Below are positions 1 to 23,852 of a stretch of 47,026 nt of DNA, piece by piece. The notes under the pieces were generated by a model. It was given only the letters and a program-made list of their open reading frames with translations, had not been told where the DNA came from and did not search any database. The translations under genes were made by a program, and so were the position numbers. Every line of letters begins with the position of its first letter. The stretch's first letter is position 1. The stretch is from contig JAIMAG010000018.1 of assembly GCA_023512135.1 (NCBI GenBank), positions 1-47,026 on the forward strand, in the 5' to 3' direction. The stretch is from Terriglobia bacterium. Lineage in GTDB: Bacteria; Acidobacteriota; Terriglobia; Acidiferrales; UBA7541.

Positions 1-171
1 CTCAAGAGTAATGAACCAATCGGCCGCCAACTGACGTTCCTCTTGCAAGAAATGCATCGGGAGATCAACACGATCGGTTCGAAAGCAAACGATGCTGACA
101 TAAGCCAACACGTTGTAACCGTCAAGGAAGAGCTCGAGCGCATTCGCGAACAAGTGCAGAACATCGAATAA
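1..171 (+). CDS. yicC: YicC family protein, C-terminal end (partial)
   Basis: The window opens inside this gene. Frame 1 gives 56 residues ending in TAA at 169-171. They match the conserved tail of YicC/DUF1732 proteins: a [20 protein letters not shown]-type stretch, then a helical end closing with REQVQNIE. YicC-family proteins are linked to stationary-phase survival and, in E. coli, to endoribonuclease activity; that is family knowledge. The stop overlaps the next start (TAATG at 169-173), so translation with gmk is probably coupled. yicC-gmk is a common bacterial neighbourhood, which supports the call. The N-terminal part lies outside the window. Confidence 0.85.
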
Positions 172-737
172 TGCCTCGGCGGCTCGTTGTCCTGTCCGCA
201 CCGAGTGGCGCCGGCAAGACGACAGTCGCCCGCCACTTACTCTCGACGATTCCCAATGCTGTGTTCTCTGTTTCTGCAACGACACGCCCGCGACGTACTG
301 GCGAGGTAGATGGCCGCGACTACCACTTTCTCACGCACGAGGAATTCGAGCGAAAAATTGCGGCTGGCGAGCTTGTTGAGTATGAAGAAATTTTTGGCAA
401 CTACTACGGCACGCTCCGCACACCGACAGAAGAAGCGCTCCGGAACGGCAACGTGATGATTTTCGACGTGGATGTCCACGGAGCTCTCTCGCTCAAGCGA
501 GCATATCCCAATGATACCTTCTTGCTCTTCATCGCCCCACCCTCACTGGAGGAGTTGGAACGAAGGCTGCGACGTCGTGGCACCGAAAGCGATGAGCAGA
601 TTCGACGTCGGCTTGAGCGTGCAGCAATGGAGATGTCGTACCAAGATCAATTCGACGCAACGATTATCAACGATGACTTACAGACGACACTCTCCCAAGC
701 ACACGAGCTTGTCCTTAGTGCCATCAACCAGGCGTGA
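171..737 (+). CDS. gmk: Guanylate kinase
   Basis: This 188-residue protein should phosphorylate GMP to GDP with ATP in the cytoplasm. The P-loop APSGAGKT is at residues 10-17. It is followed by the GMP-binding SATTRPRRTGEVDGRDYHF-type stretch and by the lid segment rich in Arg (LERRLRRRGTES). The length is slightly short of the usual 200-210 residues. The start overlaps the yicC stop. The gene converges on ftsI with a 24-bp gap and no visible terminator. It belongs to the first, Chlorobiota-like segment of the contig. Confidence 0.95.
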   Translation: MPRRLVVLSAPSGAGKTTVARHLLSTIPNAVFSVSATTRPRRTGEVDGRDYHFLTHEEFERKIAAGELVEYEEIFGNYYGTLRTPTEEALRNGNVMIFDVDVHGALSLKRAYPNDTFLLFIAPPSLEELERRLRRRGTESDEQIRRRLERAAMEMSYQDQFDATIINDDLQTTLSQAHELVLSAINQA

Positions 738-761
738 TCATTGCATGCGTGTAAGAGGTTC

Positions 762-2858
762 TCACGGCATGGTAGCAGTCACTACCAAACGCCGCGCTGA
801 GTCCCACCGATAGGAACGGACCCAACCAGAACCGTGAACGGCAGCTACCGATAACCCCAGTGCGTGTGCACACGCAAGTGCATTGCGAAGTGGCAGCCCT
901 ACAAGCGGTGGCTCCCGCCGTAACAAACCCACCGACTCAAGACGCACGCGGAGCTCCGTCCCGCGAGGGACTATCACAGCCTGCGGTGGTTGCTGTGTAA
1001 CAACAATGTGACCGCTCGCCCCTCCTTCGCTCCGTGCACGGAGTCCAACTGCACCGAGAATGCGCTCTGCGTGTTCCAGTGTCAATCCCCTGATATCGGG
1101 CACAACAACACTATCGTGATGCAAGGAGCCGCTGTGCACCGAATCGAAGCCATATCGAGCAGCAAGCTGTGGGAGATTCATCATCGTCTGAATGATTCGG
1201 CGGAACAATGGTGCAGCAGTGTTGCCGCCATAGATATCCGTGCGTGGGCGATCGAGCATGACGAGGACGACAAGTCGAGGTTGCTCTACCGGCACCATAC
1301 CAATAAACGACGCTGTATAGTCGCGCTTGGAATACATGCCATCACTCCACTGTTGAGCTGTGCCTGTTTTTCCTGCGACTGGCATCCCTTCGATGCGTGC
1401 ATTCGCGCCGGTCCCACGCTCGATGACGCCTGCAAGAAGTCGTCGGAGCACTGCAGCAGCGCTATCGGAAATCACTCGTCGGCGCCGTTGCGGGACAGCA
1501 CGGTACAGCTCTTCGCCCTGTGACGAAACGATGCGCTGCACGACGTACGGCTGCATGAGAACACCTCCGTTGGCAATAGCTGCATAGGCATACGCCAGTT
1601 GGATCGGCGTACATGCGACGCCATATCCAAAACCGAGGAAGAGGAGGTCGCTCCCCCGAAGGTCGCGCGGGAGTTTGAGCACACCTCGCGCCTCACCTGT
1701 GAGCCCAACCTCCGTACGGAGTCCGATGCCAAAGTCTCGTGCGTATCGGTAGAGCGTTCGAGCACCGAGTTCTGATGCAAGTTGTGCAAAGACGATGTTG
1801 CTCGAGTGTGCCAGTGCATCAGCAAGCGTACACATACCGAGCGGCTCATGGTCTGTGATTGTTCGTCCATCGGGAAGGCGGAGCGTGCCGCCGCGGCCAT
1901 CGAAGACTCTGTCTGGAGTCACACGTTGTTGGTCGAGCGCAGCAGCAGCCACAATTGCTTTGAACGTCGAACCGGGCTCGTACATGTCGCTGGTCGCACG
2001 CAGTCGTAGTGCATCCGGATCGGAACGTTGAGAGTGGACAAACGATGGCTGCTGTGCACAAGCAACAAGCTCGCCCGTCTGTGGTCGGATGACGATGACG
2101 GTCCCTGCAGCTGCTCCTGTTGCATCAACACTATTGGCAAGCTCGGTTTCAACGAGCTGCTCGAGCTGCCAATCAATCGTTAATTCGATCATCGCGCCCG
2201 GGCGTGCACGTTGGAAGGGGTTGTCCTCCAGCGTTGGTCGAAGCCGACCGCGGCCAATGCGTTCCATGATGCGCTCACCGACACTTCCCTGCAGGAGCGA
2301 ATCATACGCAAGTTCGATTCCTGCAATTCCACGACTGTCGACATCTGTTGTACCAATCAGTGGTGCAGCCATCCAATCGTGGATGTAGCTTCGACGATGC
2401 TCTCGAATACGGAGCAGTCCAGGCTCGCTCAACGTATCAAATGCTGCTGCCATCGGAAGGGGGATTCCACGCACAAGCCACACGAAATTCCGGTCGCGTG
2501 CAGCATCTATCCGAGCGATGATGTCGTCAGCTCGAGCAAGACCGAGCCGCTCGAGGAGGGCAGCAACTCGCTGTGGCGATCGTGCTACCTTCGGATCGAG
2601 GGCAAGCGAAACCGTAGCTACCGAGGATGCCAACTCAACACCATTCCGATCGAGAATCGCACCACGCTCTCCCTGAATACGGATTCGTGCACGGTACTGC
2701 TGCTCGGCACGTTCGAGCAACTCCGAGCGGCCAGACAGTTGGATCATTGCAAGGCGTCCAACGATTGCAAACGCTCCGAGCGTCATCGCTCCGACGACCA
2801 ATCGACGACGCCAGCGGAGGTGCTCCGGCTGATAGATTTTGTGATGCTCGATGCTCAT
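762..2858 (-). CDS. ftsI: Peptidoglycan transpeptidase FtsI/PBP3 with PASTA domain
   Basis: This 698-residue class B penicillin-binding protein should cross-link septal peptidoglycan. A basic cytoplasmic N-terminus precedes one membrane segment (about residues 19-42). The dimerisation domain begins around the RGAILDRNG motif. The transpeptidase domain carries STFK with the nucleophile at Ser297, then SSN (in AHSSNIVFA) and KTG (in AGKTGTAQ, near residue 494). The C-terminus has at least one PASTA-type repeat starting VVVPDIRGLTLEHAERIL, plus a second weaker one. Its start overlaps the stop of the FtsL-like gene (ATGA). The ftsL-ftsI pairing is the usual one in division clusters. Confidence 0.93.
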   Translation of the reverse strand: MSIEHHKIYQPEHLRWRRRLVVGAMTLGAFAIVGRLAMIQLSGRSELLERAEQQYRARIRIQGERGAILDRNGVELASSVATVSLALDPKVARSPQRVAALLERLGLARADDIIARIDAARDRNFVWLVRGIPLPMAAAFDTLSEPGLLRIREHRRSYIHDWMAAPLIGTTDVDSRGIAGIELAYDSLLQGSVGERIMERIGRGRLRPTLEDNPFQRARPGAMIELTIDWQLEQLVETELANSVDATGAAAGTVIVIRPQTGELVACAQQPSFVHSQRSDPDALRLRATSDMYEPGSTFKAIVAAAALDQQRVTPDRVFDGRGGTLRLPDGRTITDHEPLGMCTLADALAHSSNIVFAQLASELGARTLYRYARDFGIGLRTEVGLTGEARGVLKLPRDLRGSDLLFLGFGYGVACTPIQLAYAYAAIANGGVLMQPYVVQRIVSSQGEELYRAVPQRRRRVISDSAAAVLRRLLAGVIERGTGANARIEGMPVAGKTGTAQQWSDGMYSKRDYTASFIGMVPVEQPRLVVLVMLDRPRTDIYGGNTAAPLFRRIIQTMMNLPQLAARYGFDSVHSGSLHHDSVVVPDIRGLTLEHAERILGAVGLRARSEGGASGHIVVTQQPPQAVIVPRGTELRVRLESVGLLRREPPLVGLPLRNALACAHALGLSVAAVHGSGWVRSYRWDSARRLVVTATMP

Positions 2859-3187
2859 CGCAGCCGACCGATGAGAATTGGTGGGTGCGGTGAATCGATC
2901 ATTCCAAGCCGCTCCGAGGCAAACCGTCGGATGCGTTCTGCAGATTCAAGCCGTGCAATGGTTGCTCGCTCTTGTCGGATGAGCGTTTCCAATGAATCGA
3001 GCTGGCGTTGGCTTGCCTCTATGTGCATCAACAGGGTGTTGATTCGTACGACGTTGCTCACCTGCCAGAAAAGGCTTGCAAGCACGGCGAGCACTCCAAG
3101 CGCTACTGCCAATCCACGGTGGAATGACATCGGGTGGAAGAGATTCGATGATGCTGCAGTTGCAAAATACTGCGTCTGTGCTGTCAC
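2855..3187 (-). CDS. ftsL: FtsL-like cell division protein
   Basis: The 110-residue product has a short cytoplasmic N-terminus, one hydrophobic segment (GLAVALGVLAVLASLFW, about residues 25-41) and a periplasmic coiled coil. It ends with the RIRRFASERLGMI-type stretch seen in FtsL/DivIC proteins. FtsL sequences diverge widely, so the call rests on topology, size and the 4-base overlap with ftsI directly downstream. rsmH, often found upstream of ftsL, is not here: the next gene upstream encodes an outer-membrane protein after a 79-bp gap. Confidence 0.75.
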   Translation of the reverse strand: MTAQTQYFATAASSNLFHPMSFHRGLAVALGVLAVLASLFWQVSNVVRINTLLMHIEASQRQLDSLETLIRQERATIARLESAERIRRFASERLGMIDSPHPPILIGRLR

Positions 3188-3266
3188 GCAGCAAGCAACC
3201 AGGATGTCCGTTCGATATCGTCTCGTTCTGCGTCGATTGGGTCACTCTCTTGCGTTCCTCCATCTT

Positions 3267-5162
3267 TTACCGCTGCCCGGATGAATCATCGAGAGCATAT
3301 CGCAGTGTCACTGCAACAAGCTGCGCATACCAGACTCGCTCCGGTGTGAAGGCTCTGTAGAGCGCATCTCGTCTCTCGATTCGCGGATTGGGAAGTCCGC
3401 CATCGGAAACGTACCGCTGAAGGTTGCTCAGTGCCTCCTCTGTTTCGAGCGAATTCCCATAGGCAATGATGGCGTAATCCCGCAGCCGTTTGCGGTATCG
3501 TTCGATCAACATCGTAATACTATCCCTGTGTGGCAGATGAGTAGGGAAATAGTACAACTCTCGTTCAGCCATAACCTCTCGAGACGTTAGCTCACGCCGA
3601 TTCAAGGTCAGCGGTACCAGTTCAGCCGCGTTAGCACGACTACCGCCCACGCTTTCTACATCCAGTTCGATACGGAGAGGTGCATCGGTGAGCAATCGCT
3701 CCAGTGACGATGAAAGGTCGAGATCGAGCCGCAACGGCAATCCCCCGTTCCCTGCGTAACGAGCTATTTCGTGCGAATCCTGCACAACGCGGACCATCCA
3801 TTGGCGGAGCAGTTCTGCCCCGTTCGTCGCAGGACGCATGCGGAGGATGGGTGGAGTGATCGTTCGTGCAGTATCGGTGTATTCGACAGGTGCAAACAGC
3901 TGCTCATTCCCTTCGAGTACGACACGAGCTGTTGTATCGCGCTCATCGATCCTTCCCTGAACACGAAGCTGCCGAGCAGGAATCTTCCAGATCGCCTGCA
4001 AGTACCGTGCGATGTACTCAGCGCGGCGTCGCGCAACGGTAGCCGATTGTGCATCGATTCCGACGAGCTTGAGTGTATCACCGCGTTCCCGTAGTCGCGT
4101 GGCGACGATGGGTACCAGTGCATAATACGCTCCTAGTGGCGAGCTCACGAGTCGGTACCAAGAAGTATCATCGGATGATTCTGGCAGCACATAGCGCTCT
4201 GGAAGTTCCACCCCGTTCATGTAGAGCACTGGAAGGAGTGGAAACACGCGATGACGCAGATGTTCTTCGATCCGAAGCGGAAGAGGCTCTTGCGTACTGC
4301 CGACACCGTAAGCTACGATGGAAGCGGCAAGTGCTGGGAGTGCTGGTTCTGTTCGTACGGGCTCGGGCTCTGGCTCTGGGAATGATTGCAGCGTGACGGG
4401 TGCATACGCAATCCCCGCTCCGACAAGGACGCTATAGACATACCACATCTGCTGTCGCATCAGTGGATCGAGTGCATAGCGGAAACTCAACTCCGGGACG
4501 AACCACCATTGCTGCGTACGTCCGAGTGGAATGGAAAAGCGCACGCTCGCAAGGAGGGACACCATCGAACGCGTACTCGATTCGAGTCCGGAAGTCCGTT
4601 CGTTCCGAACACGGCGACCATTTTCGAACGTGCCGGTGTTCGGTTGAACCAGTTCTTCTTTCGTCGTCGCAGTCGCCTGTTGTATCAAATCCGTACCGGC
4701 ACCGATGGAGAGATCTATCAGCGGTGATGCTCGCACACCGAGGTAGCTCTCCCACCGTATCGAACGGAATTGTGCATCGATGCTGTGTTGGATGACAGCC
4801 TCTGTGGGTGTATCATCCACGAGCACTGGTTTGCGTTCGAGTGTACGGAGAATGCCAGCAAACTGCGCTACTCCCATCCGTAGGCCAAGCACCAACGACT
4901 TCCACACAGGATACTCTCCCCACAACATTCCTAACGTTGTTAGCCCGCTCCCATCGCGGAATCGTGGGCAACAGGTCGGCAACTCGGGAAGAGATGAAAA
5001 ATCAGCTCCATGGATCGTAACCCCACCTGCGCCGAGAATACCGACGCGTACGCTCCGCGGCGACGTCCATGAATGTCGAGCGCTGTTGTCATCTTCCCCA
5101 GAGTGCACTTCTGTCCTCCCAAGTACGCACAGCAGCACGACGACGAACGTCCCTGCCTTCAT
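3267..5162 (-). CDS. Large OmpA-like outer-membrane protein, hypothetical
   Basis: The 631-residue product starts with a hydrophobic signal peptide (about residues 1-20). Residues about 30-255 look like an outer-membrane beta-barrel with alternating aromatic strands. A Glu-Pro linker lies near residue 260. The C-terminal half holds a stretch like an OmpA peptidoglycan-binding domain (LVGIDAQSATVARRRAEYIA) and a repeated, more degenerate version near the end. I chose the start at 5162 because its ATG overlaps the TGA of the upstream gene (ATGA); an earlier TTG at 5186 is less likely. Such barrel-plus-OmpA proteins are common in Chlorobiota-type genomes. No specific function is assigned. Confidence 0.65.
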   Translation of the reverse strand: MKAGTFVVVLLCVLGRTEVHSGEDDNSARHSWTSPRSVRVGILGAGGVTIHGADFSSLPELPTCCPRFRDGSGLTTLGMLWGEYPVWKSLVLGLRMGVAQFAGILRTLERKPVLVDDTPTEAVIQHSIDAQFRSIRWESYLGVRASPLIDLSIGAGTDLIQQATATTKEELVQPNTGTFENGRRVRNERTSGLESSTRSMVSLLASVRFSIPLGRTQQWWFVPELSFRYALDPLMRQQMWYVYSVLVGAGIAYAPVTLQSFPEPEPEPVRTEPALPALAASIVAYGVGSTQEPLPLRIEEHLRHRVFPLLPVLYMNGVELPERYVLPESSDDTSWYRLVSSPLGAYYALVPIVATRLRERGDTLKLVGIDAQSATVARRRAEYIARYLQAIWKIPARQLRVQGRIDERDTTARVVLEGNEQLFAPVEYTDTARTITPPILRMRPATNGAELLRQWMVRVVQDSHEIARYAGNGGLPLRLDLDLSSSLERLLTDAPLRIELDVESVGGSRANAAELVPLTLNRRELTSREVMAERELYYFPTHLPHRDSITMLIERYRKRLRDYAIIAYGNSLETEEALSNLQRYVSDGGLPNPRIERRDALYRAFTPERVWYAQLVAVTLRYALDDSSGQR

Positions 5163-6517
5163 CGTGCGATCACGATCAATGTGCAACTAACCCCGAACGG
5201 CGATCGTGCCTGGAGGACATAGTGCCCCGCTGGAAGCGGAAGGCTCACGGTCTGTTCGATTGCATCGCGCACTGTGCCTAATGGTACGCTCCACCGTTCG
5301 ACACCCACAAGGTCATAACACGCAAGCTCAACCGGCGACTCACGATCGACAGTGACGCGCAGGTGAAACGTCCCACTGCTCGGTTGTGGCTCGATGCGTT
5401 CGATGCGGGGTGCTCGACCTGCAATGAAAAGTCGTGTTGTCCCTCCCGCTGTGCAGTAATCGTTGAAGAAAACTGTCACGGACGCTGGCGCAAGTTCACT
5501 CGAGCAGTCATCGAGCCAGGCGAAATCCTCGACGGCAATCTGGACGACTGGTTCATCGCCCCAAAACGTGCTGAACCGCAGGAGTGCGAGCGTATCTCCA
5601 ACGAGAAAGCCGCGACCAGTGACTGTGATACGTCGCTCTCCATCCGCAACAGTACCACGCTCGAGCGGAGGTAACGGCAACAGTGTCGATGCATTGCAGC
5701 GGACAGTAAAGCGGTATGGTCGTTGCATGGACCGAAACTCCCTCGGTACCGATGGCATCCACACTGGTACAGTAATGACACGTCCCGCTTGGGTGACGAT
5801 ACTCCGCGGCATACTGAGTGCTGCACCCCGATAAGGTTGTGCACACACGACATCAGCGACGACGACACATTCGTACGGCTGACGCTCGCTTCCTTCCACC
5901 AAGAGTCGTAGGCAGGTACGACCGACGCGGTCCGTCCGAATACCGAACGGGTACGCCAGACATGGTGTCTCCTCCGTCAACGCAAATTGACGGATGGTCA
6001 GCAGTCGGAGCTGTGTTGTATCGGGCCAATCGGCAATCAACCGGATCTGTTGGGGCGACGTTGCACACACCAGCCATTGGACGAGTGTATCCCGCACGAT
6101 ACCGGGAGGCATCGTCCCCATCCACAGTGTCGGTGGTAGTGTCAATGTCGGGCTCGGAGCATACCCTACGACAACAGCTCGTTGCATCCCAACCGGCGTA
6201 TAGACTTCGAGTGTATCAGCAAACATTCCAGCCCGTGTCGGCGAAAAGCGAAGCTGGAGTGTGATACACTGCCCTGGGGGCAGGAATGCTGGATTGCCTT
6301 TCGCAAAGGAAAACTCACGCCCTATGACAAATCGGATGGAATCGATGCGCACCGCATCGCTTGTATCCGAGCAGATGAGCTGTGGTGGCTGAAATTCGAC
6401 CACTGTCCCTGCTCGTGCGGTCTGCACATCAGGTACTACCAAACTCAGCGGCGGCTTGATAACCTGGACCGCACCGGAGAGTGCCTGCATTCTCCCTGTC
6501 CGATCGCGTAGCTCGAA
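5159..6517 (-). CDS. Secreted protein with Por/T9SS-like C-terminal sorting domain (5' truncated by junction)
   Basis: About 452 residues of a secreted protein remain. It has beta-rich, Ig-like repeats of the HYDIN/ASPM kind (for example PGQCITLQLRFSPTRAGMF) and several Cys residues. The last 75 or so residues start IEPQPSSGTFHLRV and contain YDLVGVERWSV, and they look like a type A sorting domain used by the type IX secretion system in Bacteroidota/Chlorobiota relatives. The frame runs on without a stop into hisS at about 6518, so the real N-terminus and signal peptide are missing. The stop overlaps the downstream outer-membrane protein start. The cargo role is inferred from the C-terminal domain. 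Confidence 0.6.
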   Translation of the reverse strand, partial: FELRDRTGRMQALSGAVQVIKPPLSLVVPDVQTARAGTVVEFQPPQLICSDTSDAVRIDSIRFVIGREFSFAKGNPAFLPPGQCITLQLRFSPTRAGMFADTLEVYTPVGMQRAVVVGYAPSPTLTLPPTLWMGTMPPGIVRDTLVQWLVCATSPQQIRLIADWPDTTQLRLLTIRQFALTEETPCLAYPFGIRTDRVGRTCLRLLVEGSERQPYECVVVADVVCAQPYRGAALSMPRSIVTQAGRVITVPVWMPSVPREFRSMQRPYRFTVRCNASTLLPLPPLERGTVADGERRITVTGRGFLVGDTLALLRFSTFWGDEPVVQIAVEDFAWLDDCSSELAPASVTVFFNDYCTAGGTTRLFIAGRAPRIERIEPQPSSGTFHLRVTVDRESPVELACYDLVGVERWSVPLGTVRDAIEQTVSLPLPAGHYVLQARSPFGVSCTLIVIAR

Positions 6518-6530
6518 GCGGTAGCGCCCT
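6505..6530. other. Chimeric junction between two genomes
   Basis: On the minus strand the HisS motif 2 sequence reads RRERPQKGRYR, where the family continues with QFHQ. Here it switches to FELRDRTGRMQAL, which belongs to the T9SS-like cargo protein. The switch is inside a codon run around 6515-6526. Third-position base use, gene families and apparent phylum all change at this point. An assembly join across a short shared GC-rich word is the simplest explanation. A true genomic fusion would have destroyed an essential gene. Confidence 0.8.
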
Positions 6531-6913
6531 TTCTGCGGCCGTTCGCGGCGAAACATCGGGCCGATGTAGTAGAGCTTGACGTCACCGGGCCAGGTGTGCA
6601 TGCCGTGCTCGATGTAGGCACGACAGACCGACGCGGTGGCTTCCGGCCGCAGGCTGATTCTGCTTCCGCTCTTCTCTTCCTCGGCACCGGCATCCAGAAA
6701 GGTGTACATCTCCTTGGAGACAATGTCCGTGTCGGCGCCGACGGAGCGGGCGAACAGCTCAGTCGGTTCGAGAATCGGCAAGCGGATTTCGCTGAAGCCG
6801 TAGGTGGCGAAAACCTCGCGGGCCGCCTGCTCAACGCGGTTCCACAACTCGGACTCCGGTGGCAGGATGTCGCGCATACCTTTGATGGCTCGAAATGGTC
6901 TTCCTTTTCCCAT
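6518..6913 (-). CDS. hisS: Histidyl-tRNA synthetase, N-terminal fragment (3' part missing)
   Basis: The first 132 residues of a class II HisRS are present. They include the N-terminal KGMRDILPPE signature (residues 11-20), motif 1 region residues (IRLPILEPTELFARSVGADTD), SLRPEATASVCRAY (87-100) and motif 2 FRRERPQKGRYR (121-132). The histidine-specific loops, motif 3 and the anticodon-binding domain are absent because the sequence changes to another protein at about 6518. As assembled, the product could not aminoacylate tRNA-His. The start at 6913 fits the family's N-terminus. Upstream on the same strand are the carbonic-anhydrase-like gene and mrp. Confidence 0.9.
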
Positions 6914-7134: not shown

Positions 7135-7647
7135 CTATTCACTGTTTCTGTAGATTGCGGCGTATTCGACATAGCGCAGGGCGTAGCCGTCGATTTCCTG
7201 CTGTTCGGCAGCAGTCAGTGTGCGGCGAAACTTTCCGGGATGACCCATGAACAGGCTGCCGGGCGGGACTTCGGTTCCTTCGGGCACCAGAGTGCCGGCA
7301 GCGATAATCGAGCCGGTGCCGATGCGCGCGCCGTTCAGAATGATTGCGCCCATACCGATCAGTACTCGCGATTCGATGGTGCAACCGTGGAGTATGCACC
7401 GATGGCCGACGGTTACGCTATCGCCGATCTGCAGCGGATGGGTACCGCGCATCACGTGACAGATAGTTCCGTCCTGAATGTTGGTGCGGGAGCCAATCCG
7501 AATCCAGTGCACGTCACCCCGTATCACCACACCCGGCCAGACCGAGCTTTGCTCGCCGATGGTGACGTCACCAATGATCACGGCCGCCGGGTCGATGTAG
7601 GCCGACGCGGCTATCTGGGGTCGTTTGCCTTGATAGCTGCGAAGCAT
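7135..7647 (-). CDS. Gamma-class carbonic anhydrase family protein (YrdA-like)
   Basis: The 170-residue product is a left-handed beta-helix protein of hexapeptide repeats, from about IDPAAVIIGDVTIGEQSSVWPGVVIRGD onward. The metal-binding histidines of the gamma-CA/YrdA family are visible in CHVMRGTH, VGHR and ILHGC. Members bind zinc or iron as trimers. Some hydrate CO2, but many YrdA-type proteins show no proven activity. I chose ATG at 7647 (MLRSYQGKRPQ) because it matches the family's N-terminus; a GTG at 7659 would add four residues. It lies 70 bp downstream of mrp on the same strand. Confidence 0.85.
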   Translation of the reverse strand: MLRSYQGKRPQIAASAYIDPAAVIIGDVTIGEQSSVWPGVVIRGDVHWIRIGSRTNIQDGTICHVMRGTHPLQIGDSVTVGHRCILHGCTIESRVLIGMGAIILNGARIGTGSIIAAGTLVPEGTEVPPGSLFMGHPGKFRRTLTAAEQQEIDGYALRYVEYAAIYRNSE

Positions 7648-7717
7648 CGCTGAACGCACTGCCGGTCGAGGCAGGGAAAGCTAACACACACCCCGCAGAC
7701 TGACAAGCAAGCTGCCT

Positions 7718-8560
7718 TCAATCGATTTGCACGACCGGTCCGGCGGTACTGGCGGCGAGCGCGGCCACACGCGCCATCACGGCTTCGGCCATGGCGTAGA
7801 ATCCGCGGGCGGCCGGCGCCTGCGGGCCTTCGAGTGCGACCGGCTTTCCGGTGTCACCACCGATGCGAATCTGCGGGTCCAGCTCAATCTCACCCAGAAA
7901 GGGGACGCCGAACTGCTCGGCCACGCGCCGCCCTTCACCCTGTCCGAAAATGTAGTGCCGGCTGCCGTCCGGCGCACGGAAGTAGCTCATATTTTCGACC
8001 ACGCCCAGGATGTCAGTGTTCACCTGACGGAACATTTCGATCGCCTTGCGCACATCGGCCAGCGCGACAATCGAAGGCGTGGTGACGATAATGGCTCCGG
8101 TTACCGGCACGGTCTGGATCAGCGTCAGTTGCACATCGCCGGTGCCGGGCGGCAGATCCACGACCAGATAGTCCAGCTCACCCCAAATCACGCTGCGCAG
8201 GAACTGCTGGATCACGCTGTGCAGCATCGGACCGCGCCAGATCATCGGGCGGTCCTCCGGCACCAGCAGGCCCATCGAAATGACCCGGAGGCCGTTCACG
8301 GCGACGGGCAGAATCTGTCGTTCGCCAGTGGCCTGCGGCTGTTCGCTGGTGCCGAGCATGGTGGGCACGTTCGGGCCGTACACATCGGCGTCGAGCAGAC
8401 CCACCCGATGGCCCAGTTGGGCCAGCGCAATCGCGAGATTGACTGCGACCGTCGTTTTGCCCACGCCACCTTTGCCGCTCGCAACGGCAATCAGGTTTTT
8501 CACGCCCGGAATAGGTGCACGTTCGTGCTGCAGGCGGGGCGGCTGCGGACTGGCTCCCAT
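7718..8560 (-). CDS. mrp: Mrp/NBP35-family P-loop ATPase (Fe-S carrier type)
   Basis: The 280-residue protein belongs to the Mrp/ApbC group of deviant Walker A ATPases that carry or help insert iron-sulfur clusters. GKGGVGKTT is at residues 29-37, followed by LLDADVYGPNVP and the switch region VVDLPPGTGDVQLT. Two features differ from E. coli Mrp. There is no N-terminal MIP18/DUF59 domain. The usual C-x2-C after ENMSYF is replaced by RAPDG, so the bridging cluster ligands are absent from this copy; Cys-less forms exist in other bacteria. The start has an AGGAGGG ribosome binding site 3-5 bases upstream. Confidence 0.92.
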   Translation of the reverse strand: MGASPQPPRLQHERAPIPGVKNLIAVASGKGGVGKTTVAVNLAIALAQLGHRVGLLDADVYGPNVPTMLGTSEQPQATGERQILPVAVNGLRVISMGLLVPEDRPMIWRGPMLHSVIQQFLRSVIWGELDYLVVDLPPGTGDVQLTLIQTVPVTGAIIVTTPSIVALADVRKAIEMFRQVNTDILGVVENMSYFRAPDGSRHYIFGQGEGRRVAEQFGVPFLGEIELDPQIRIGGDTGKPVALEGPQAPAARGFYAMAEAVMARVAALAASTAGPVVQID

Positions 8561-8905
8561 CTTCCCTCCTGAACTGCGCGCTCGAAACCGACGGCGCGTC
8601 AGCGCAGGGGCTGAAGCCCCTGCATGGCCATTGCCATGGCCTTGATTCGTCGCGGCTGATGCTGCGACCCCTCAACCTCAATCATTCGTCAGCGGCGCGC
8701 TGAAAACCAATGATAAACGCCGGGCCCCACTCGTGCAAACGGCGCGCTCTTGAGAAGAACAAGAACGGCCCGGATGCGAACTGGCGCTGCCCGCTCGGCT
8801 GATTCCTTTGATTTGAAGTCGTCGTCGGAGTGGGCGGGCCGTTTTTCGACGACCAGGTAAGTCAGGGGACGCGTTTTTTTTCGGAACCTCGACAATGACC
8901 AAATC
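8561..8905. other. Gene-poor stretch between mrp and a decayed beta-barrel gene
   Basis: I see no supportable complete gene here. The stretch holds the mrp ribosome binding site at its left end and a pair of tandem hairpins (8604-8638, listed separately). An eight-T run lies at 8874-8881. Open frames on both strands lack start signals and recognisable domains. If the beta-barrel gene to the right once had a signal peptide, it should lie here, but no frame encodes one. Confidence 0.5.
8604..8638. repeat. REP-like tandem palindromes
   Basis: A perfect 9-bp inverted repeat (gcaggggct / agcccctgc, 8604-8612 and 8615-8623, two bases between) is followed at once by a second one (catggc / gccatg, 8623-8628 and 8633-8638). 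Palindromes with a GGGGCTGAAGCCCC core are a familiar form of short extragenic repeat in several phyla. I found only one copy in this window, so the repeat status is an inference. Confidence 0.5.
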
Positions 8906-9489
8906 GTGATTCTGGCGAGCTGGGACCGCGAATCCATTGCCAGTTCGGTGCGCTCCGTTCTCGGGCTTCGCTTCTGGCTGAACGACTCAGAAGCGCTTGA
9001 GGCCAGCTACCCGGCGGGGCCAAACGACGTGAATATCCGGCAGGCGGTGGACTGCGTGCCCATCTCCCTCAGCGGGAGCCAATTGCTCTCCGACCCACGG
9101 ATGGATCTGCGCTTCAAGGTGCGCAGCTCGATCCACTTCCAATCCGCGAATTACGTCCGTTATCTGCCGCAGGGCCGTGCTTGGCGGCTTTTCGTGACGG
9201 GAGGTGGTGGCGTGACGATTCTCGACGAGTTTTTCATTCACCGGAGATTTGCAATGAACTTCGCGGAGGGTTCAACCGTCCGCTCAACGAATATCTTTCC
9301 TTTCGCTCTGAATACCGTGTCTTTGCGTTCCGCCAGCCAAAGCTGAGCAGTATCTTCGTGCCGCATCCAGCTTTGCTACCGCCACGGCCCTTCGGCCGGG
9401 CTCGCCTTCCGCTTCTAGCCCACTCGCGGGGCTTTATTGTGCAGTGGCGACCGAAGCAGGAGCCAGCCGCCGGTCGTTCCTTTTCGTGA
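8861..9489 (+). pseudogene. Outer-membrane beta-barrel protein, frameshifted and 5' truncated
   Basis: One frame reads LGLRFWLNDSEALEASY, then a run of amphipathic strands ending in GGGVTILDEFFIHRRFAMNF. At about 9255-9265 the sensible protein moves to another frame as GGFNRPLNEYLSFRSEYRVFAFRQ. Adding one base in ttcgcgg would restore MNFGGGF and a continuous barrel ending. The 5' end has no signal peptide or ribosome binding site. The last 40 residues before the stop at 9489 are not barrel-like. It is either a decayed gene or an intact one with a sequencing error. Two intact, perhaps related barrel genes lie at 14148 and 14870. Confidence 0.6.
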
Positions 9490-9570
9490 CAACTTCCTGA
9501 GCTCTTTATACTACTTGGCAAATATTTATGCATATAAATAATTCTCAAAATTTGCAGGAGGATGTGGGCG

Positions 9571-10096
9571 ATGGTTCAGTCCAGTCGGCGGTCGGTGATG
9601 AAGGCCATGCTCGCTTTCCCGATCCAGGGAAAGCAAAATCAACGGCTGGCAGGAAACCTGTTTCTGGCGATAACTTTGCCTCTTCTCGCCGGTGTTGGCT
9701 GCGGCTGTTCAACGGATAATCGACTTCAGCCGGCTAAAAGATCAGTTGGGGAGGAGCGCAGCTGGTGACCTCGAAATCCTTCTGGAGGGCGATCCGGAAT
9801 TGGCCAATCGGGCCGATCCGCATACCCGCCTTACCGCCCTGCGGTGGGTTGTGCTGGGAAAATCTCACGCTGCCGTAGAACTTCTGTTGCGCAAAGGGGC
9901 AGACCCGAATGTGGACAGTCAGCCACCTGTCCCGACCAGCCAGTTGGTGCTCGCGATTAGGCAGGATGACATCGAGATGGTTCGGCTGTTACTGCGATAC
10001 GGAGCGGACCCAAAACGCTTCTACCCGGGCTGGGGAACGCCTTACACAACGGCCACGGCCCAAAAGCGGATGGACATCGCAGAATTGCTGAAATAA
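9571..10096 (+). pseudogene. Ankyrin-repeat lipoprotein-like gene, split by a frameshift
   Basis: An AGGAGG at 9556-9561 precedes ATG 9571. This first frame encodes a secretion signal with a lipobox-like end (LLAGVGCGCS) and stops at 9768. From about 9740 the other frame encodes two to three ankyrin repeats: DLEILLEGDPELANRADPHTRLTALRW, HAAVELLLRKGADPN and IEMVRLLLRYGADPKRF, ending IAELLK before TAA. A GTG at 9692 could start the second frame alone but has no ribosome binding site. The simplest reading is one exported ankyrin protein with an indel at 9730-9768. Ankyrin repeats bind proteins; the partner is unknown. Confidence 0.6.
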
Positions 10097-10133
10097 AGCA
10101 CATTTTCATCTTTCTCCTGCTCACGGCACTGCC

Positions 10134-10675
10134 ATGACGGGCACGCTTGTGCATGTGCTTGCTGTTCTCGCGCGATTGCTCGTCGGTTCCGTGTTGGTGT
10201 TTGCGGCCATAACGAAACTGGGCAGATTCGACAGATTCGTTCGGGCCGTCGCCGGATATCGTCTGCTAACGGAGTGCGCAGTTCATTCAGTATCATAGTT
10301 GTCATCGTCTACGAGCTCGCTGCCGGGGCTGCCGTAGCAGTGGGACTTTGGTTGCCATTTTCCGCGTGGGCAGCAACAGCGTTGCCAGGAATTTTCGCGC
10401 TGGCCATTGGTTCCAACGTCATTCGAGGGCAGGATACTCAGGACCGTGGATGCTTCGGAGGATGGCAACTGAAGGTTGGCTGGCTGCTGTTTTGCAGGAA
10501 TTTCGGGCTGGCAGGATTCGCCATGCTCTCCGTGCAGACGGAATTGGTCCCCACCTGGCCACAGGCAGGTCTTTTCGCCATGTGCTTGGGAATGAGCGTA
10601 GCTCCGTTTTTGGCGTCACGCGTCGCTGCTGAGACGCCTCCTCAGAGGGACCAACCCTCCCGGTCTGAACAGTAG
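10134..10675 (+). pseudogene. MauE/DoxX-like membrane protein, split by a frameshift
   Basis: ATG 10134 opens a frame with a first membrane helix, ARLLVGSVLVFAAITKLGRFDRF, then VAGYRLL, a typical MauE/DoxX-like start. It stops at about 10298. The protein continues in another frame from about 10274 with IVVIVYELAAGAAVAVGLWL, further helices and the RGQDTQDRGCFGGW loop that resembles the Cys-containing loop of MauE proteins. It ends at 10675. An indel at about 10270-10290 explains this. Members are four-helix inner-membrane proteins linked to quinone or thiol redox and methylamine dehydrogenase maturation; the substrate here is unknown. Confidence 0.65.
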
Positions 10676-11032: not shown

Positions 11033-13915
11033 ATGCAGGTTGACCAGATCATTGACCGCGTGTTGGCGCGGTTCATCGGCACCAAGCACGAGCGCGATAT
11101 TCGTCGGCTGAAGCCGTTCGTCGAAGCGATCAACGCGCTGGAGCCGGAGATGCAGCGACTGACGGACGCCGAGATGCGCGCGCGCACCGAACAGTTTCGC
11201 GCACAGGTTCGCGCGGCGTTGGGCGACACCACGCCGGAAGACTCAGACTATCGCCAGAAGCTCGATGCGGCGCTCGACACCCTTCTGGTTCCCGCCTTTG
11301 CCCTGGTGCGCGAAGCCGCCCGACGGCGGCTGGGCATGCGCCACTTCGATGTGCAACTGATCGGCGGGATCGTGCTCCACCAGGGCAAAATTGCCGAGAT
11401 GAAAACCGGCGAGGGAAAAACGCTGGTGGCCACGCTGCCGGCATATCTGAATGCCCTCGCGGGCCAGGGTGTGCACATCGTCACGGTGAACGACTATCTG
11501 GCCCGGCGCGACGCGGAATGGATGGCGCCCATCTACACTGCGCTGGGCTTGAGCGTGGGGATCATTGTCCACGACCTGGACGACGCCCAGCGGCGCGCCG
11601 CCTATGCAGCCGATGTGACTTACGGCACCAACAACGAATTCGGCTTCGACTATCTGCGGGACAACATGAAGTACGATCTTGCCGACTGTGTCCAGCGCGG
11701 GCACCACTATGCCATTGTGGACGAGGTCGACTCCATCCTGATCGACGAAGCCCGCACCCCTCTGATCATTTCCGGGCCGGCAGAAATCTCCACGGAAAAG
11801 TACTATCGCGTGGACAAAATCATCCCGAAATTGATTCGCGATCTGGACTACACGATCGACGAAAAGCATCGCACGGCCACCCTCACCGAAGAGGGAGTGG
11901 CCAAATGCGAGCGGCTGCTCGGTGTGAGCAATCTGTACGACCCGGCTCACATCGACCTGCTCCACGGCGTCTATCAGGCGCTGCGTGCCCACACCCTGTT
12001 CCACCGCGACCGCGATTATGTGGTCAAGGATGGCCAGGTGATCATCGTGGACGAGTTTACCGGGCGCCAGATGCCGGGCCGCCGCTGGTCGGACGGTCTG
12101 CACCAAGCCATCGAAGCCAAAGAGGGCGTGAAAATCGAACGGGAAAATCAGACGCTGGCTACCATCACCTTTCAGAACTACTTCCGCATGTACCGCAAGC
12201 TGGCGGGAATGACCGGTACGGCGGAAACGGAAGCTGCCGAGTTCAGCAAAATCTACAACCTGGATGTGGTGGTCATTCCCACCAATCGTCCCCTGATCCG
12301 GCACGAATTTCCCGACGTTGTCTACCGCACCGAGCGGGAAAAATTCGAAGCGGTCGTCAACGGCATTCTTCAGGAAGACGGCACCTACACCGGCGGGATC
12401 CGGCAGTTCTACGAACGCGGTCAGCCCGTGCTGGTGGGCACCATCTCGATCGAAAAGTCCGAGCGGCTGAGCGCCCTGCTGAAAAAAGCCGGCATCCCTC
12501 ACCAGGTGCTCAACGCCAAGCAGCACGAACGGGAAGCGAAAATCATCTCGCAAGCCGGCCGCAAGGGCGCGGTCACCGTCTCGACGAACATGGCGGGGCG
12601 CGGGACGGACATTCTGCTGGGCGGCAATCCGGAGCTGCTGGCACGGGAGCATTGTCTGCGCGAGAAGCTGGCCATTCCCTATGCTCCGGCTGGATCCGTG
12701 ATACGTCCCGATGAAGCCGATGCCCTGAGTGCGGCGCAGCGGGTGATGTTTCAGCACGAGGGGCGCATCTATCAGGTTCCCCTCGAGGTCTGGAAGCCGA
12801 TCTACGAGCAGTACGCCGCGCAGTGCCGCGCCGAACACGACGAAGTCGTCGCCCTGGGCGGACTCCATGTGCTCGGCACCGAACGTCACGAAGCCCGGCG
12901 CATCGACAACCAGCTCCGGGGCCGCGCCGGCCGCCAGGGAGACCCGGGCTCTTCCCGATTTTTCCTCTCGCTGGAAGACGACCTGCTGCGCATCTTTGGC
13001 GGCGAGCGCGTGAAAAACCTGATGTACCGGCTGGGCATGACCGAGGGAGTGCCCATCGAATCCCGCCTGATCAGCCGTCGCATCGAAAACGCGCAGAAGG
13101 CGGTCGAGGCGCAGAACTTCCAGGCCCGCAAGCACCTGCTCGAATACGACGACGTGATGAACAAGCAGCGGGAAACCATCTACTCGATCCGCCGCTCGAT
13201 CCTGGAGGGCAAGGACCAGAAAGACTACGTTCTCGGCATCGCCGAAGATATCGCGCGGGAACTCGTGGCCACCTACTGTCCCCGCGATGCCCACCCGGAC
13301 ACCTGGAACATCGCCCAGCTCACCAACGAAGTCCTGCACCAGTTTGGTCTGGACCTCGCCGCGGCCGGCATCGACCCGAAGCAACTCGAGCACGAGGAAC
13401 TGGCCGACCAGCTCGTCGAGGCCATTCACCGCCGTTATCAGGAGAAGGAGCAGCTCTTCGGCGCAGAGGTGATGCGCTGGCTGGAACGCCGCGTGGTACT
13501 CGACGTGGTGGACACGCAATGGAAAGACCACCTGCTCTCGCTCGACCACCTGAAGGAAGGCATCGGCTTGCGCGGCTACGGGCAGAAGGATCCGCTGGTC
13601 GAGTTCAAAAAGGAAGCCTTCACGCTGTTCGAAGAGATGATGGACCGCATCGACACCGAAACGGTCCGCTTTCTGTTTCTCGTTCAACCGGCCCGGCCTG
13701 AGGTGGGCACCGCGACCGCTCATCAGGCCGCACCGCCCATGCTCGAAGCAGTCGAACGCCGCCGTCGCCAAGCACAGCAAAACCTGCAGTTCCAGGCCGG
13801 TGCCAAGCAGGAAGCGCCACGCCCGGTGCGCGCCGGCGCAAAAATCGGTCGCAACGATCCCTGCCCCTGCGGCTCCGGCAAGAAATACAAAAAGTGCTGC
13901 GGGAAAGTAGCCTGA
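11033..13915 (+). CDS. secA: Preprotein translocase ATPase SecA
   Basis: The 960-residue motor drives unfolded preproteins through SecYEG. The Walker A motif MKTGEGKT is at residues 123-130, with the conserved [13 protein letters not shown] and [16 protein letters not shown] segments after it. DEAD-type [20 protein letters not shown], the preprotein cross-linking domain, and the second nucleotide-binding fold ([13 protein letters not shown]) follow, then the helical scaffold ([12 protein letters not shown]). The C-terminal zinc-binding tail [13 protein letters not shown] (from residue 944) binds SecB or ribosomes in other bacteria. The ATG at 11033 has only a weak ribosome binding site. SecY is encoded at 35560-36975. 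Confidence 0.97.
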
Positions 13916-14147
13916 GCCAGGCACCGGTACGGAATGCCCTCGGACTGACCGGTACGCCACTCAGAAAGGCGCAAAATGTCGGGCATTCCTGCCGTCGTTT
14001 CCAAACGGTTCATCCCGGGAGTTCCCAGGGGTTACTTAAAGGGTTCTTAGTACGAACTTTTCATAGCAGAACCCGTATGCGCATGCTATTCAAGCGAGGG
14101 TGAGCCAGAGCCTCTCAGAGGCCTGCGTAACTGGAGGAGAGTTGCCT

Positions 14148-14690
14148 ATGCGAAAGCTATTTGTGGTGTGTGGGGTCGTTGCATTCATTCTGGCTGCGGG
14201 TCAGCCCGCTGCTGCACAGGGTGAACATAGCTGGCGGCTGCGCGCGGCGGTTGTGAACGAACAAATCAGCGAAGACGTCTCCAACATCGACTTCCACCTG
14301 ACCGGCTTCGCGGTTCGGGTGTCGCGACAACTGTACGGTCCGCTGGCAGTTGCTGGAGAGTATGGGGCCACATTTGGTGATCCTTTCGATCTGGACACGA
14401 ACAATCAGTGGATCGTCGGAGGGCTCCAGGTCTACCCCTACGCTGGCGAGTATGTGGAAGTTTACTTCCAGGGCCTGGGCGGCTGGGATCGGGTCAAAGT
14501 CGGCGAAGGCCCCGGCAGCAGTGACAGTGGCGGAACGGTAGTCGTGGGTGGAGGAGTCAACATCTACTTCCACCAAAATGTGGGCCTGAACTTCGAAGCG
14601 AACTACAAGTCCATGTGGACGTTCGACACCCGGCAGGACGTGGGCCAATTCCGCGGCGGGATTGTCTTCCGCTGGGGTGGCTCGTACTGA
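14148..14690 (+). CDS. Small outer-membrane beta-barrel protein
   Basis: The 180-residue product has a signal peptide (MRKLFVVCGVVAFILAAGQPAAAQ) and then alternating strands with a barrel pattern, ending in FRGGIVFRWGGSY. It has no periplasmic domain. ATG 14148 is preceded by GGAGGAGA seven bases upstream. A bidirectional terminator follows directly. Its neighbour at 14870 encodes a protein of the same size and style (both end in GxxFRW), which suggests an old duplication. The specific function is unknown; such barrels are often annotated only as outer-membrane beta-barrel proteins. Confidence 0.75.
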   Translation: MRKLFVVCGVVAFILAAGQPAAAQGEHSWRLRAAVVNEQISEDVSNIDFHLTGFAVRVSRQLYGPLAVAGEYGATFGDPFDLDTNNQWIVGGLQVYPYAGEYVEVYFQGLGGWDRVKVGEGPGSSDSGGTVVVGGGVNIYFHQNVGLNFEANYKSMWTFDTRQDVGQFRGGIVFRWGGSY

Positions 14691-14706
14691 GGGATTCATG
14701 TCCCAC

Positions 14707-14757
14707 AAAAGAAAAGGGCGGACCAGCAGCGAGCGCTGGGTCGCCCTTTTCTTTTCT
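14707..14757. terminator. Bidirectional intrinsic terminator
   Basis: The arms aaaagaaaagggcg...ccagc and gctggg-tcgcccttttctttt pair over about 18 bp around an AGCGAGC loop. There is an A-tract before the stem and a T-tract after it. It closes the beta-barrel gene ending at 14690. Confidence 0.85.
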
Positions 14758-14869
14758 AACCAGTCATTGGCGATTTAAGTTGCCGATTTTCTGCTGACGC
14801 ACTGCCACAGGGCTTGCGAAAGCAGAATCTGTCCAAATCTGTACGGCGGACTCGATCCGGCGGTCACCG

Positions 14870-15409
14870 ATGCCTCTTCGCATTTCAATGTTCGTTATCG
14901 TGCTGGCATGTGCTGCCCTGCCGACAGCAGCACAGCCCAGCCATCGTGCGGAAGTGGGCGTGCTGTATGAGCGCTTCGAAGCAGGGGCTCAAACGCCGTT
15001 CGACGACTTCGGCATGGACGGATTTGGAGGTGTACTGACCGTCTATCTGCTGCGCTGGTTTGCCTTCAAAGCAGAAGTGGGCGGCAGTTGGGGGCGGCCC
15101 GCGGGTGTGCTGGCCAGTCTGTACAGCTACCATTTCGGCATTCAGTTGGCCTGGCGGGAGCGCTGGCCGCTGATTCCCTGGTTGCACCTGCTCGGTGGTC
15201 GGAGTCGCATCAAATTCGACGTGGATACGCCGGAAGCGTTTTCGGTGCACGACAACACAGACTCGTGGGTCCTCGGTGGAGGCGTGGACGTTCCCTTTCA
15301 CCGTCACTGGGTCTTCCGCCTAGCAGAGCTCAGCTATGTCCGCACGGCCTTCAACGATCAAACCCAGAACAACTGGCGAATCAAGTCTGGCTTCCTGTTC
15401 CGGTGGTGA
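14870..15409 (+). CDS. Small outer-membrane beta-barrel protein, possible paralogue
   Basis: The 179-residue product has a signal peptide ending near TAAQP (about residue 22). Its barrel strands then include GGVLTVYLLRWFAFKAEVGGS and WVLGGGVDVPFHRHWVFRLAE, and the ending KSGFLFRW matches a beta-signal. It sits downstream of the terminator at 14757, so it is probably transcribed separately. Similar size, same order of elements and a shared FRW ending link it to the 14148 gene. No function beyond outer-membrane location is claimed. Confidence 0.75.
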   Translation: MPLRISMFVIVLACAALPTAAQPSHRAEVGVLYERFEAGAQTPFDDFGMDGFGGVLTVYLLRWFAFKAEVGGSWGRPAGVLASLYSYHFGIQLAWRERWPLIPWLHLLGGRSRIKFDVDTPEAFSVHDNTDSWVLGGGVDVPFHRHWVFRLAELSYVRTAFNDQTQNNWRIKSGFLFRW

Positions 15410-15608
15410 GGTCAAAAGTTAAAACTGACGAGCCGGGGCCGACACCCGGGTTTCCCCGGAAACTCAGAACCCCAGGGCACAGCACTTCGAACTCCACAGA
15501 AGTTCCCAACTTGGGTAGTTTCTACCCCTCAGCTTATCCGAGGATAGCCAGATAGTCAGGGAAATTTCCATAAGTAGTTTTTTTTCAATTTATTAGACAG
15601 CGTACGGG

Positions 15609-16013
15609 TTGGTGGACACCGTGCTCAGATGCCCAGGGGCAGACCCCTCAAGGTCTGTCGAAGCGAGGTGCAAGGTGGGGAATTCCGCTGCGCCGAAGTG
15701 CCGGATTACTGGCTGCGAACAACGGGTGCGGCCGGCGCTGGCTGCTCAGATGCTCTGCCTGGACCACTTCTTCGAGTACACCTACACGAAGGCGCTCGCG
15801 ACGCTGGAACTATGCCAGCAAGGCCGGGCGGTGGACTGGGATTCGCTGGAGTGGTTGTTCACCATCGCGGACTTTTCCATCCGCATGCTGGCACAAAATG
15901 CGCATGCGCTCAGTCCGGCGCAGCGCGACAAAACCCTGGAGCTGCTGCTGTGCCTGTCAAACATCCGCGAATATGTTCGGCACCACTCGGTAGCCGGTGT
16001 CAACACCGCTTGA
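15609..16013 (+). CDS. Hypothetical protein with a CCCH zinc-like motif
   Basis: I do not recognise the family. The longest reading gives 134 residues from a TTG at 15609, but the first 25 or so look unstructured and a later GTG may be the true start. The core has C-x4-C-x13-C-x2-H (Cys31, Cys36, Cys50, His53), which could bind zinc. It is followed by a helical region (FEYTYTKALATLELC and later LLLCLSNIREYVRHH). The spacing to the next + gene is 93 bp, so they may be co-transcribed. An AT-rich stretch with eight Ts lies just upstream (15576-15583 region). Confidence 0.55.
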   Translation: MVDTVLRCPGADPSRSVEARCKVGNSAAPKCRITGCEQRVRPALAAQMLCLDHFFEYTYTKALATLELCQQGRAVDWDSLEWLFTIADFSIRMLAQNAHALSPAQRDKTLELLLCLSNIREYVRHHSVAGVNTA

Positions 16014-16106
16014 GCTGCTTATCGGCACCTGCGCAAACCCGAACTCACTCCGGCGAAGTGGTGCGGCCGCTGCCGGCACGCTTCCGAGAAATCTAAGTGG
16101 TTCACC

Positions 16107-16850
16107 ATGGCTACAGACATTCAAAATCTCGATCCGTTCAAACCTTCGCAACCACAGATTCCAGGTGTGACGCCAACGCCGCCGACACGCAACTGGAGCA
16201 AACGCTGGCAATGGTTTGCCGACGCCGAGTGGCGTTCGCGCTGGCTGCGCCGAGCGGGGATTCCTGTCGCGGCCGTACTGGCCGGGGCGGTTCTGGCCTG
16301 GATAACGTTTCCCACCCTGCCCGAGCCACGGGAAAAACAAACCGAGCAAAGGCGGCTGTCGCAGCCGGCAGCCTCAGCGGCTATCCAGACAGCAGCGCCG
16401 ACGGCGCGGGTGCTCGAAGAAGTTCCGCCCGGTCCGGTAACCGTGGCCCGTGTCGGGGAGCTGGCCAAACCTTGGGAAGCTCGGTTCTTCCGCATCCGCC
16501 GCCAGCACAATGGGCGCGAGGTGCCAGCGATTCTGATTCGCCTGCCGAACGTTTCGGCGCGCTCGGCGAATGCCTACTGGGCACTGGTGCTGGAAGAACC
16601 GTTCGGCCGCTGCAAACTGGAATACGTAACCGACCGAAAGCGGCTCGAGCGCGAATTCGGCTATCGGGCGCAGCACCCGATGGTGGTGGACCCATGCAAC
16701 GGGTCGGTCTATCATCCGCTGCGCTTTGGACCGCGAACCGACGGGGCCATGCTTCGCGGCGAGGTGGTTGCAGGGCCAGCGATCCGGCCGCCGCTGGCGA
16801 TTCTGGTGCACGTGCGCGGCAACGAGATTATTGCGGAACGAACCGAATAA
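16107..16850 (+). CDS. Membrane-anchored protein with a Rieske-like fold lacking cluster ligands
   Basis: The 247-residue product has a cytoplasmic N-terminus, one membrane helix (about residues 51-70), an Ala/Pro-rich linker and a C-terminal domain. That domain ends in DPCNGSVYHPLRFG (Cys197) followed by GAMLRGEVVAGPAIRPPLAILV. This parallels the second half of Rieske proteins, where CPCHGS-x-Y/F is followed by LRGPAPRPL. The C-x-H and C-x2-H ligand sets are not present, so a 2Fe-2S cluster is unlikely. No cytochrome bc genes are adjacent. The fold call is by eye; the role is unknown. Confidence 0.5.
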   Translation: MATDIQNLDPFKPSQPQIPGVTPTPPTRNWSKRWQWFADAEWRSRWLRRAGIPVAAVLAGAVLAWITFPTLPEPREKQTEQRRLSQPAASAAIQTAAPTARVLEEVPPGPVTVARVGELAKPWEARFFRIRRQHNGREVPAILIRLPNVSARSANAYWALVLEEPFGRCKLEYVTDRKRLEREFGYRAQHPMVVDPCNGSVYHPLRFGPRTDGAMLRGEVVAGPAIRPPLAILVHVRGNEIIAERTE

Positions 16851-16865
16851 CGACGCCGACCGCTT

Positions 16866-17207
16866 TCAGTGCGACCCTGCCGACTGCATCGTGCGCCGGA
16901 CTTCTTCTCCCATTCTTCCCGTCAGCATCAGCCAGACCATTTTCTGGTCCGAGAGCCACGACCAGAGCGGATGGCCGAACGTGGCCGGCCGGTTGTGTTC
17001 GATGAAAAAGTGGGAGATCCAGGCCAGGGCGTAGCCAACCAGCAAGGCCGCCAAGACGAGCCAGGGATTGCGCAGCAGGATCGCGGCCACAAGTAACCCC
17101 CAGCCCGCCACCGTTCCGGTGAAATGAAACACGCGGGTCAGCGGCCGGCTATGCGCACGAACATAGTAAGGCCAGAATTCGGCAAAGTTTCTGGGTGCTT
17201 CCGACAT
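16866..17207 (-). CDS. DUF962 / Mpo1-like membrane protein
   Basis: The 113-residue product begins SEAPRNFAEFWPYYVRAHS and carries the conserved His residues of this family in FHFTGT and SHFFIEHNRPATFGHP, between two membrane segments. Yeast Mpo1 is an Fe-dependent dioxygenase in fatty-acid alpha-oxidation; bacterial members are mostly uncharacterised. I chose the ATG at 17207 because of the GAGGCAGGG just upstream and the family's N-terminus. It converges on the Rieske-like gene with a 15-bp gap and follows the lipoprotein gene at 17296 on the same strand. Confidence 0.8.
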   Translation of the reverse strand: MSEAPRNFAEFWPYYVRAHSRPLTRVFHFTGTVAGWGLLVAAILLRNPWLVLAALLVGYALAWISHFFIEHNRPATFGHPLWSWLSDQKMVWLMLTGRMGEEVRRTMQSAGSH

Positions 17208-17295
17208 CCCTGCCTCGCTGGTGCAGCATTCTACGCGGCCGACGTGTACAAAACAACCTGCAAAGAACAGGCTGTGACGAGGCAGAGCCAGGGGA

Positions 17296-18693: not shown

Positions 18694-19043
18694 GACGAGC
18701 TCCTCGAAGATGGAAGATGACCGGGCCACCCCCTTCCCGGCTCATCCATATCAACCCCGCTGCGCAGAAAAAGTTGCAGGGAATAAGACTCGGTGGAACG
18801 CGAACTAGCGAACATTTGGCGAAGGCCAAATGCGCGGGGGATATCCTCAGGCGGGGTCTTTACATTAAAAACGCTGAGTAGTAAAAGCACGAATTGCTTA
18901 TATGTCAGAAAGGTATATTCAAGGAAATTTTCGGCTGCAACCCCGATTCCCGTTACGAAACCCTGAATTGCATCGCACCCATCCGCGGAAGAATTTCTTC
19001 TGCTTCTTTTTCGCACATGCAAATCTCAACAGGAGGTGGGCAT
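18694..19043. promoter_or_regulatory. Divergent intergenic region of the lipoprotein and TonB-receptor genes
   Basis: No gene is visible. The region must hold promoters for both flanking genes. A perfect inverted repeat, catttggc-gaag-gccaaatg (18813-18832), could be an operator or a GAAG-loop hairpin. To its right the sequence turns AT-rich (18859-18920), with TTTACA and TATATT-like words but no well-spaced pair. AGGAGG at 19031-19036 serves the receptor gene. Confidence 0.45.
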
Positions 19044-22466: not shown

Positions 22467-22491
22467 AAAGCCTGTCTAAACAAACTGCATC

Positions 22492-22526
22492 CCGGGGCAA
22501 GGCCGCTGGCCTTGCCCCGGCCTTTT
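22492..22526 (+). terminator. Intrinsic terminator after the TonB-dependent receptor
   Basis: A perfect 13-bp stem (ccggggcaaggcc, 22492-22504; ggccttgccccgg, 22508-22520) with a 3-base loop is followed by CCTTTTTC. Confidence 0.92.
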
Positions 22527-22685
22527 TCTCGGTTCGAGACAGACAGGACGCGGGCGGGCCGCGCCCAAGTTACCTTTGGCACACTGCGGAGCGACATTTT
22601 CACGGCGGAGTTGCATCCTATAGACTGGGCTTGCCCGGTCGGCCAGCACACATAGCCCGGAATGCCCGAACCGCAAGGAGGAACG

Positions 22686-23696: not shown

Positions 23697-23735
23697 TTCC
23701 CGGACCTCGCGCCGAAAAGAACGGTCGGCACACGG

Positions 23736-23766
23736 GCCGGGGTTGCCCCGGGCAGCCCCGGCTTTT
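23736..23766 (+). terminator. Intrinsic terminator after the BON lipoprotein gene
   Basis: A 12-bp stem with one G-T pair (gccggggttgcc, 23736-23747; ggcagccccggc, 23751-23762) and a 3-base loop is followed by TTTTCG. Confidence 0.8.
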
Positions 23767-23852
23767 CGTGTGGTCGCGGTGCGGGCCTGCTTGACTTCGC
23801 CGGCAAGCAGGGCTACAAACGCGCGTTCCGAAAACCCACCCGGGAGGACAGC

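Follow-up and report, generated by a model that had tools for sequence, protein, structure and literature searches.

Probable false assembly join of two bacteria at a 21-base word shared by hisS and a foreign secreted-type gene

The stretch analyzed here (the window) is the whole of contig C46, 47,026 bases, from draft genome G000 (2.83 Mb in 51 contigs). We conclude, with a probability of roughly 93%, that this contig is chimeric, DNA of two different bacteria having been falsely joined during assembly at a shared word of 21 bases. The closest relatives of the two sides differ: the right side is nearest to G001, a genome of the same genus, and the left side to G084. Moreover, the gene cut at the joint is uninterrupted in the close relative of each side, as hisS in G001 and as a 974-residue open reading frame (ORF) in G084. 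Different relatives on two sides that meet inside a gene whole in each of them indicate two source bacteria. The original prediction that the contig combines two organisms is thus supported by the separate relatives, the whole genes and the exact shared word, and the comparison of best matches on each side that it had proposed bears it out.

The ORF spanning the joint (5159-6913, reverse strand; 584 residues) is present in the window. The histidyl-tRNA synthetase profile TIGR00442 covers only residues 9-132 of the fusion, corresponding to profile positions 2-118 of 406, with a score of 160.6 bits, where the cut-off is 286.75. The ORF therefore has neither a score above the curated cut-off nor full-length coverage of the profile. 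Compared with a histidyl-tRNA synthetase, the fusion matches the family through motif 2 but lacks profile positions 119-406, and the remainder is an unrelated protein. The native part consists of the first ~130 codons of hisS (6519-6913, reverse strand), cut in motif 2 and continuing in the same frame into a secreted-type protein from the other organism; this hisS start is 87% identical to its counterpart in G001 (contig C218) and has matches in 21 of 25 genomes searched. The 3' part of the foreign gene (5159-6539, reverse strand) covers fusion residues 121-584 and is 75.6% identical to G084 by tblastn. Its homologue there, the 974-residue ORF (L127:7658-10582, reverse strand), reads VPQKGRYRFELRDRTGRM. 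We rejected a real domain fusion, since both halves exist as whole genes in relatives. The fused gene is most likely an assembly artefact and not a real protein; the hisS fusion does not represent a biological feature. The two parts share one reading frame, which a random join would produce in about a third of cases.

The joint can be delimited from both directions. Homology to G001 starts at 6519 and homology to G084 reaches 6539, with identity to G084 falling from 29/30 at 6511-6540 to 12/30 at 6541-6570. Between these limits lies the overlap GCCGCAGAAAGGGCGCTACCG (6519-6539, reverse strand), the site of the false join. It is exactly 21 bases long, is identical in G084, and encodes PQKGRYR both in motif 2 of the host hisS and in the foreign gene. 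The word occurs once in G000, at the joint, and once in G084, and is absent from G001 and G521; the host hisS in G001 reads RRERPQKGRYRQF. The base before the word is G in the window and T in G084, and the base after it is C in the window and in G084 but G in G001 and in a second G000 contig, C40. Judging from G001 and C40, the native base after the joint would be G. The presence of the word in the foreign organism itself, here called X, is likewise presumed from G084, not read from X. The joint had been placed at 6505-6530; it is confirmed, but the interval lies slightly further right. The match to histidyl-tRNA synthetase does end at the proposed RRERPQKGRYR, but PQKGRYR belongs to both genes.

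A shared word of this length is not exceptional. Given the base composition of both sides, two genomes of 2.83 and 2.19 Mb should share about 7.5 words of 21 bases by chance alone. For the same pair the expectation drops to 0.035 for words of 25 bases and to 1e-5 for words of 31. Shared words of 10-16 bases in the compared pieces were observed at 1.2-1.7 times the chance expectation. A shared 21-mer is therefore ordinary, and only an assembler working with such short words would be misled by it.

The left side (1-6539), which reaches the contig end, is assigned to X by DNA homology, absence in host relatives and tetranucleotide usage, G084 being the nearest genome compared. DNA homology to G084 (L127) extends over 1-712 and 804-6539, at an identity of only ~68%. 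The segment carries a guanylate kinase gene (gmk; 171-737, forward strand), followed on the reverse strand by genes for an FtsI-type penicillin-binding protein (762-2858), an FtsL/DivIC-like protein (2855-3187; PF04977, E 1.6e-5, below the curated cut-off), an outer-membrane-type protein (3267-5186; weak OmpA match, PF00691, E 0.01, below cut-off) and the secreted-type ("cargo") protein. Order and orientation of these five genes are as in G084, with protein identities of 84, 70, 71, 61 and 76%, respectively. A search for the cargo protein (5159-6505) recovered it from its own genome but from none of 40 host relatives. A search of G000 for the upstream half of X's cargo gene, run without a positive control, returned an empty and hence uninformative answer. 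G000 has a second guanylate kinase, on contig C47 (742-1272), that is 43% identical to the window copy. Of the two, it is the window copy that is foreign and would be scored as contamination.

The FtsI-type protein was used to place X. A scan with 67 loci yielded only distant relatives (27-37% identity), among them the draft genome L013, recorded as Chlorobiota bacterium (31%), and led to G041 and then to G084. Within the phylum of L013, matches were obtained in 294 of 395 genomes (E up to 1e-60), the best being in G084 (70%), G370 (66%) and G288 (58%). The cargo gene was not found in the stretches taken from G370, G288, G253 and G185, so that its place as a neighbor is seen in G084 only. The description of the foreign half as a Chlorobiota-type secreted protein is consistent with these matches, with the phylum taken from a single draft genome, L013. 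The further label of type IX secretion cargo is unsupported. The C-terminal tail of this large secreted-type protein does resemble such cargo by eye. However, profile searches for the C-terminal sorting domain matched no model in NCBIfam (E up to 1) or in Pfam (tail alone, E up to 10), and we rejected the label. Compared with type IX cargo proteins, the foreign protein thus lacks a profile-supported sorting domain.

Comparison with the same-genus genome G001, followed to ~24 kb, shows the sequence to the right of the joint, from 6519 on, to be native to G000. Beyond the hisS start, the native genes comprise a gamma-carbonic-anhydrase-like protein (gCA; 7135-7659, reverse strand; 96% identical to G001, NF050158 match below its cut-off), an Mrp/ApbC-type ATPase (7718-8560, reverse strand; 94%) and SecA (11033-13915, forward strand). 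SecA shares 94-96% identity with two G001 pieces and 75-81% with the best same-family copies, and 39 of 41 genomes searched had a match. G001 carries the row secA, mrp, gCA, hisS and aspS, with hisS whole. Further right, positions 14000-24000 align to G001 over nearly their whole length at 83% DNA identity and have no DNA match in G084.

Two local features of the right side were also recorded. A stretch of ~1.6 kb (8795-10385), which holds an ankyrin-repeat ORF and the greater part of a MauE-like ORF, does not align at the DNA level to G001, in which its flanks adjoin; it reflects either an insertion in the window or a loss in G001. ARAGORN called a tRNA-Thr at 8315-8389, antisense within mrp, while no tRNA was called in the mrp-bearing stretches of G001, G005 and G006. 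The call is probably false.

The predicted change in gene content and third-position composition at the joint is present, although the compositional split is not clean. GC content at third codon positions (GC3) is 0.54-0.60 in five left-hand genes, compared with 0.77 for the hisS start, 0.69 for gCA, 0.77 for mrp and 0.79 for secA. The contrast is blurred by three right-hand ORFs with values of 0.53, 0.61 and 0.64, in or near the left-hand range, the first of which (16097-17005) may be in the wrong frame. Tetranucleotide usage, a comparison also proposed with the original prediction, separates the sides: z-score correlations of the left part with four right-hand pieces were -0.05 to 0.22, as against 0.71 with G084 and 0.40 to 0.68 among the right-hand pieces themselves.

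A further intact hisS in G000 had been named among the observations that would refute the chimera. Contig C40 of G000 (L113; 11,656 bases) does contain a full-length hisS reading frame, adjoining the only aspS in G000 that scores over the family cut-off. The aspS and mutL genes of C40 are 88-89% identical to G001, indicating a native or nearly native region. The C40 hisS, however, is a mosaic of three sources, with switches at ~1203 and ~1515. Before 1203, G582 is, among the genomes compared, nearest or tied in 17 of 18 bins of 50 bases (301-1200), at an identity well below species level. The segment 1203-1514 is identical to G521, from another family of the same class, at 307 of 312 positions (98.4%). 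From 1515 onward the sequence is that of the native genus, G001 being nearest in all 17 bins of 1501-2350; the last bin (2351-2400; G521 27/50, G001 23/50) was left out because the aligned pieces end there. At the protein level, codons 1-200 are 87-88% identical to G521 and 52% to G001, whereas codons 205-415 are 73% identical to G001 and 52% to G521. These switches of source led us to reject the view that C40 holds the native gene and the window a duplicate. Neither hisS of G000 is the gene of one organism, and both contigs lack the central part of the native hisS. That the same conserved gene is chimeric in a similar way on C40 supports an assembly error in the window, and the second hisS no longer counts against it. 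The gamma-carbonic-anhydrase gene beside the C40 hisS is not native-like (54% identical to the window's copy).

How could the join have arisen? Widely used short-read assemblers have 21 as their smallest default word, and we infer that a de Bruijn graph with k = 21 gave rise to the chimera. The host hisS and the secreted-type gene of X would carry GCCGCAGAAAGGGCGCTACCG by coincidence, an assembler with a smallest word of 21 letters would merge both copies into one node, and its path would then leave the host hisS and continue into X DNA. The join might instead have been made in the sample or library, by ligation or by template switching at short homology during amplification, which the short exact homology at the joint would also suit. 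We regard this as unlikely, because the overlap equals exactly the smallest default word of common assemblers and because the two additional switches in the C40 hisS, located at conserved stretches, are better explained by graph ambiguity than by random chimeras in the library.

The other alternative is biological: a piece of X would have been inserted into the host hisS by horizontal transfer, with function kept by the C40 copy. In favor of it, a full-length hisS frame does exist elsewhere in G000, and the native sequence breaks within hisS on both contigs. Yet the foreign piece consists of housekeeping DNA arranged as in G084, reaches the contig end, retains X-like composition, and has no mobility gene among the five ORFs scanned; the foreign gene was found in none of the 40 host relatives examined. 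Transfer also fits poorly with a C40 hisS of three sources and a native hisS whose middle is on neither contig. The host would truly have to carry foreign DNA in hisS motif 2 while enzyme activity is maintained by a patchwork hisS that arose through recombination with two other lineages. Both the transfer and this arrangement strike us as barely credible, and a false join during assembly remains our preferred explanation.

The finding is of value for quality control. Automatic annotation would yield a histidyl-tRNA synthetase of 584 residues with a secreted protein attached, and 6.5 kb of DNA from a distant bacterium would be credited to the host, among it the genes for a second guanylate kinase and for a penicillin-binding protein. 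The C40 hisS would pass a completeness check despite being a patchwork, and trees or transfer claims based on the hisS of G000 would therefore mislead. G000 scores 97.4% complete and 1.56% contaminated in spite of the chimera; thus, completeness and contamination scores fail to expose such joins.

In conclusion, the window has the properties of chimeric contigs from de Bruijn-graph metagenome assembly: two organisms, a short exact word at the joint, one gene cut and a foreign contig end. It does not differ from them in kind, and the 21-base overlap together with the second mosaic makes it an unusually clear case.
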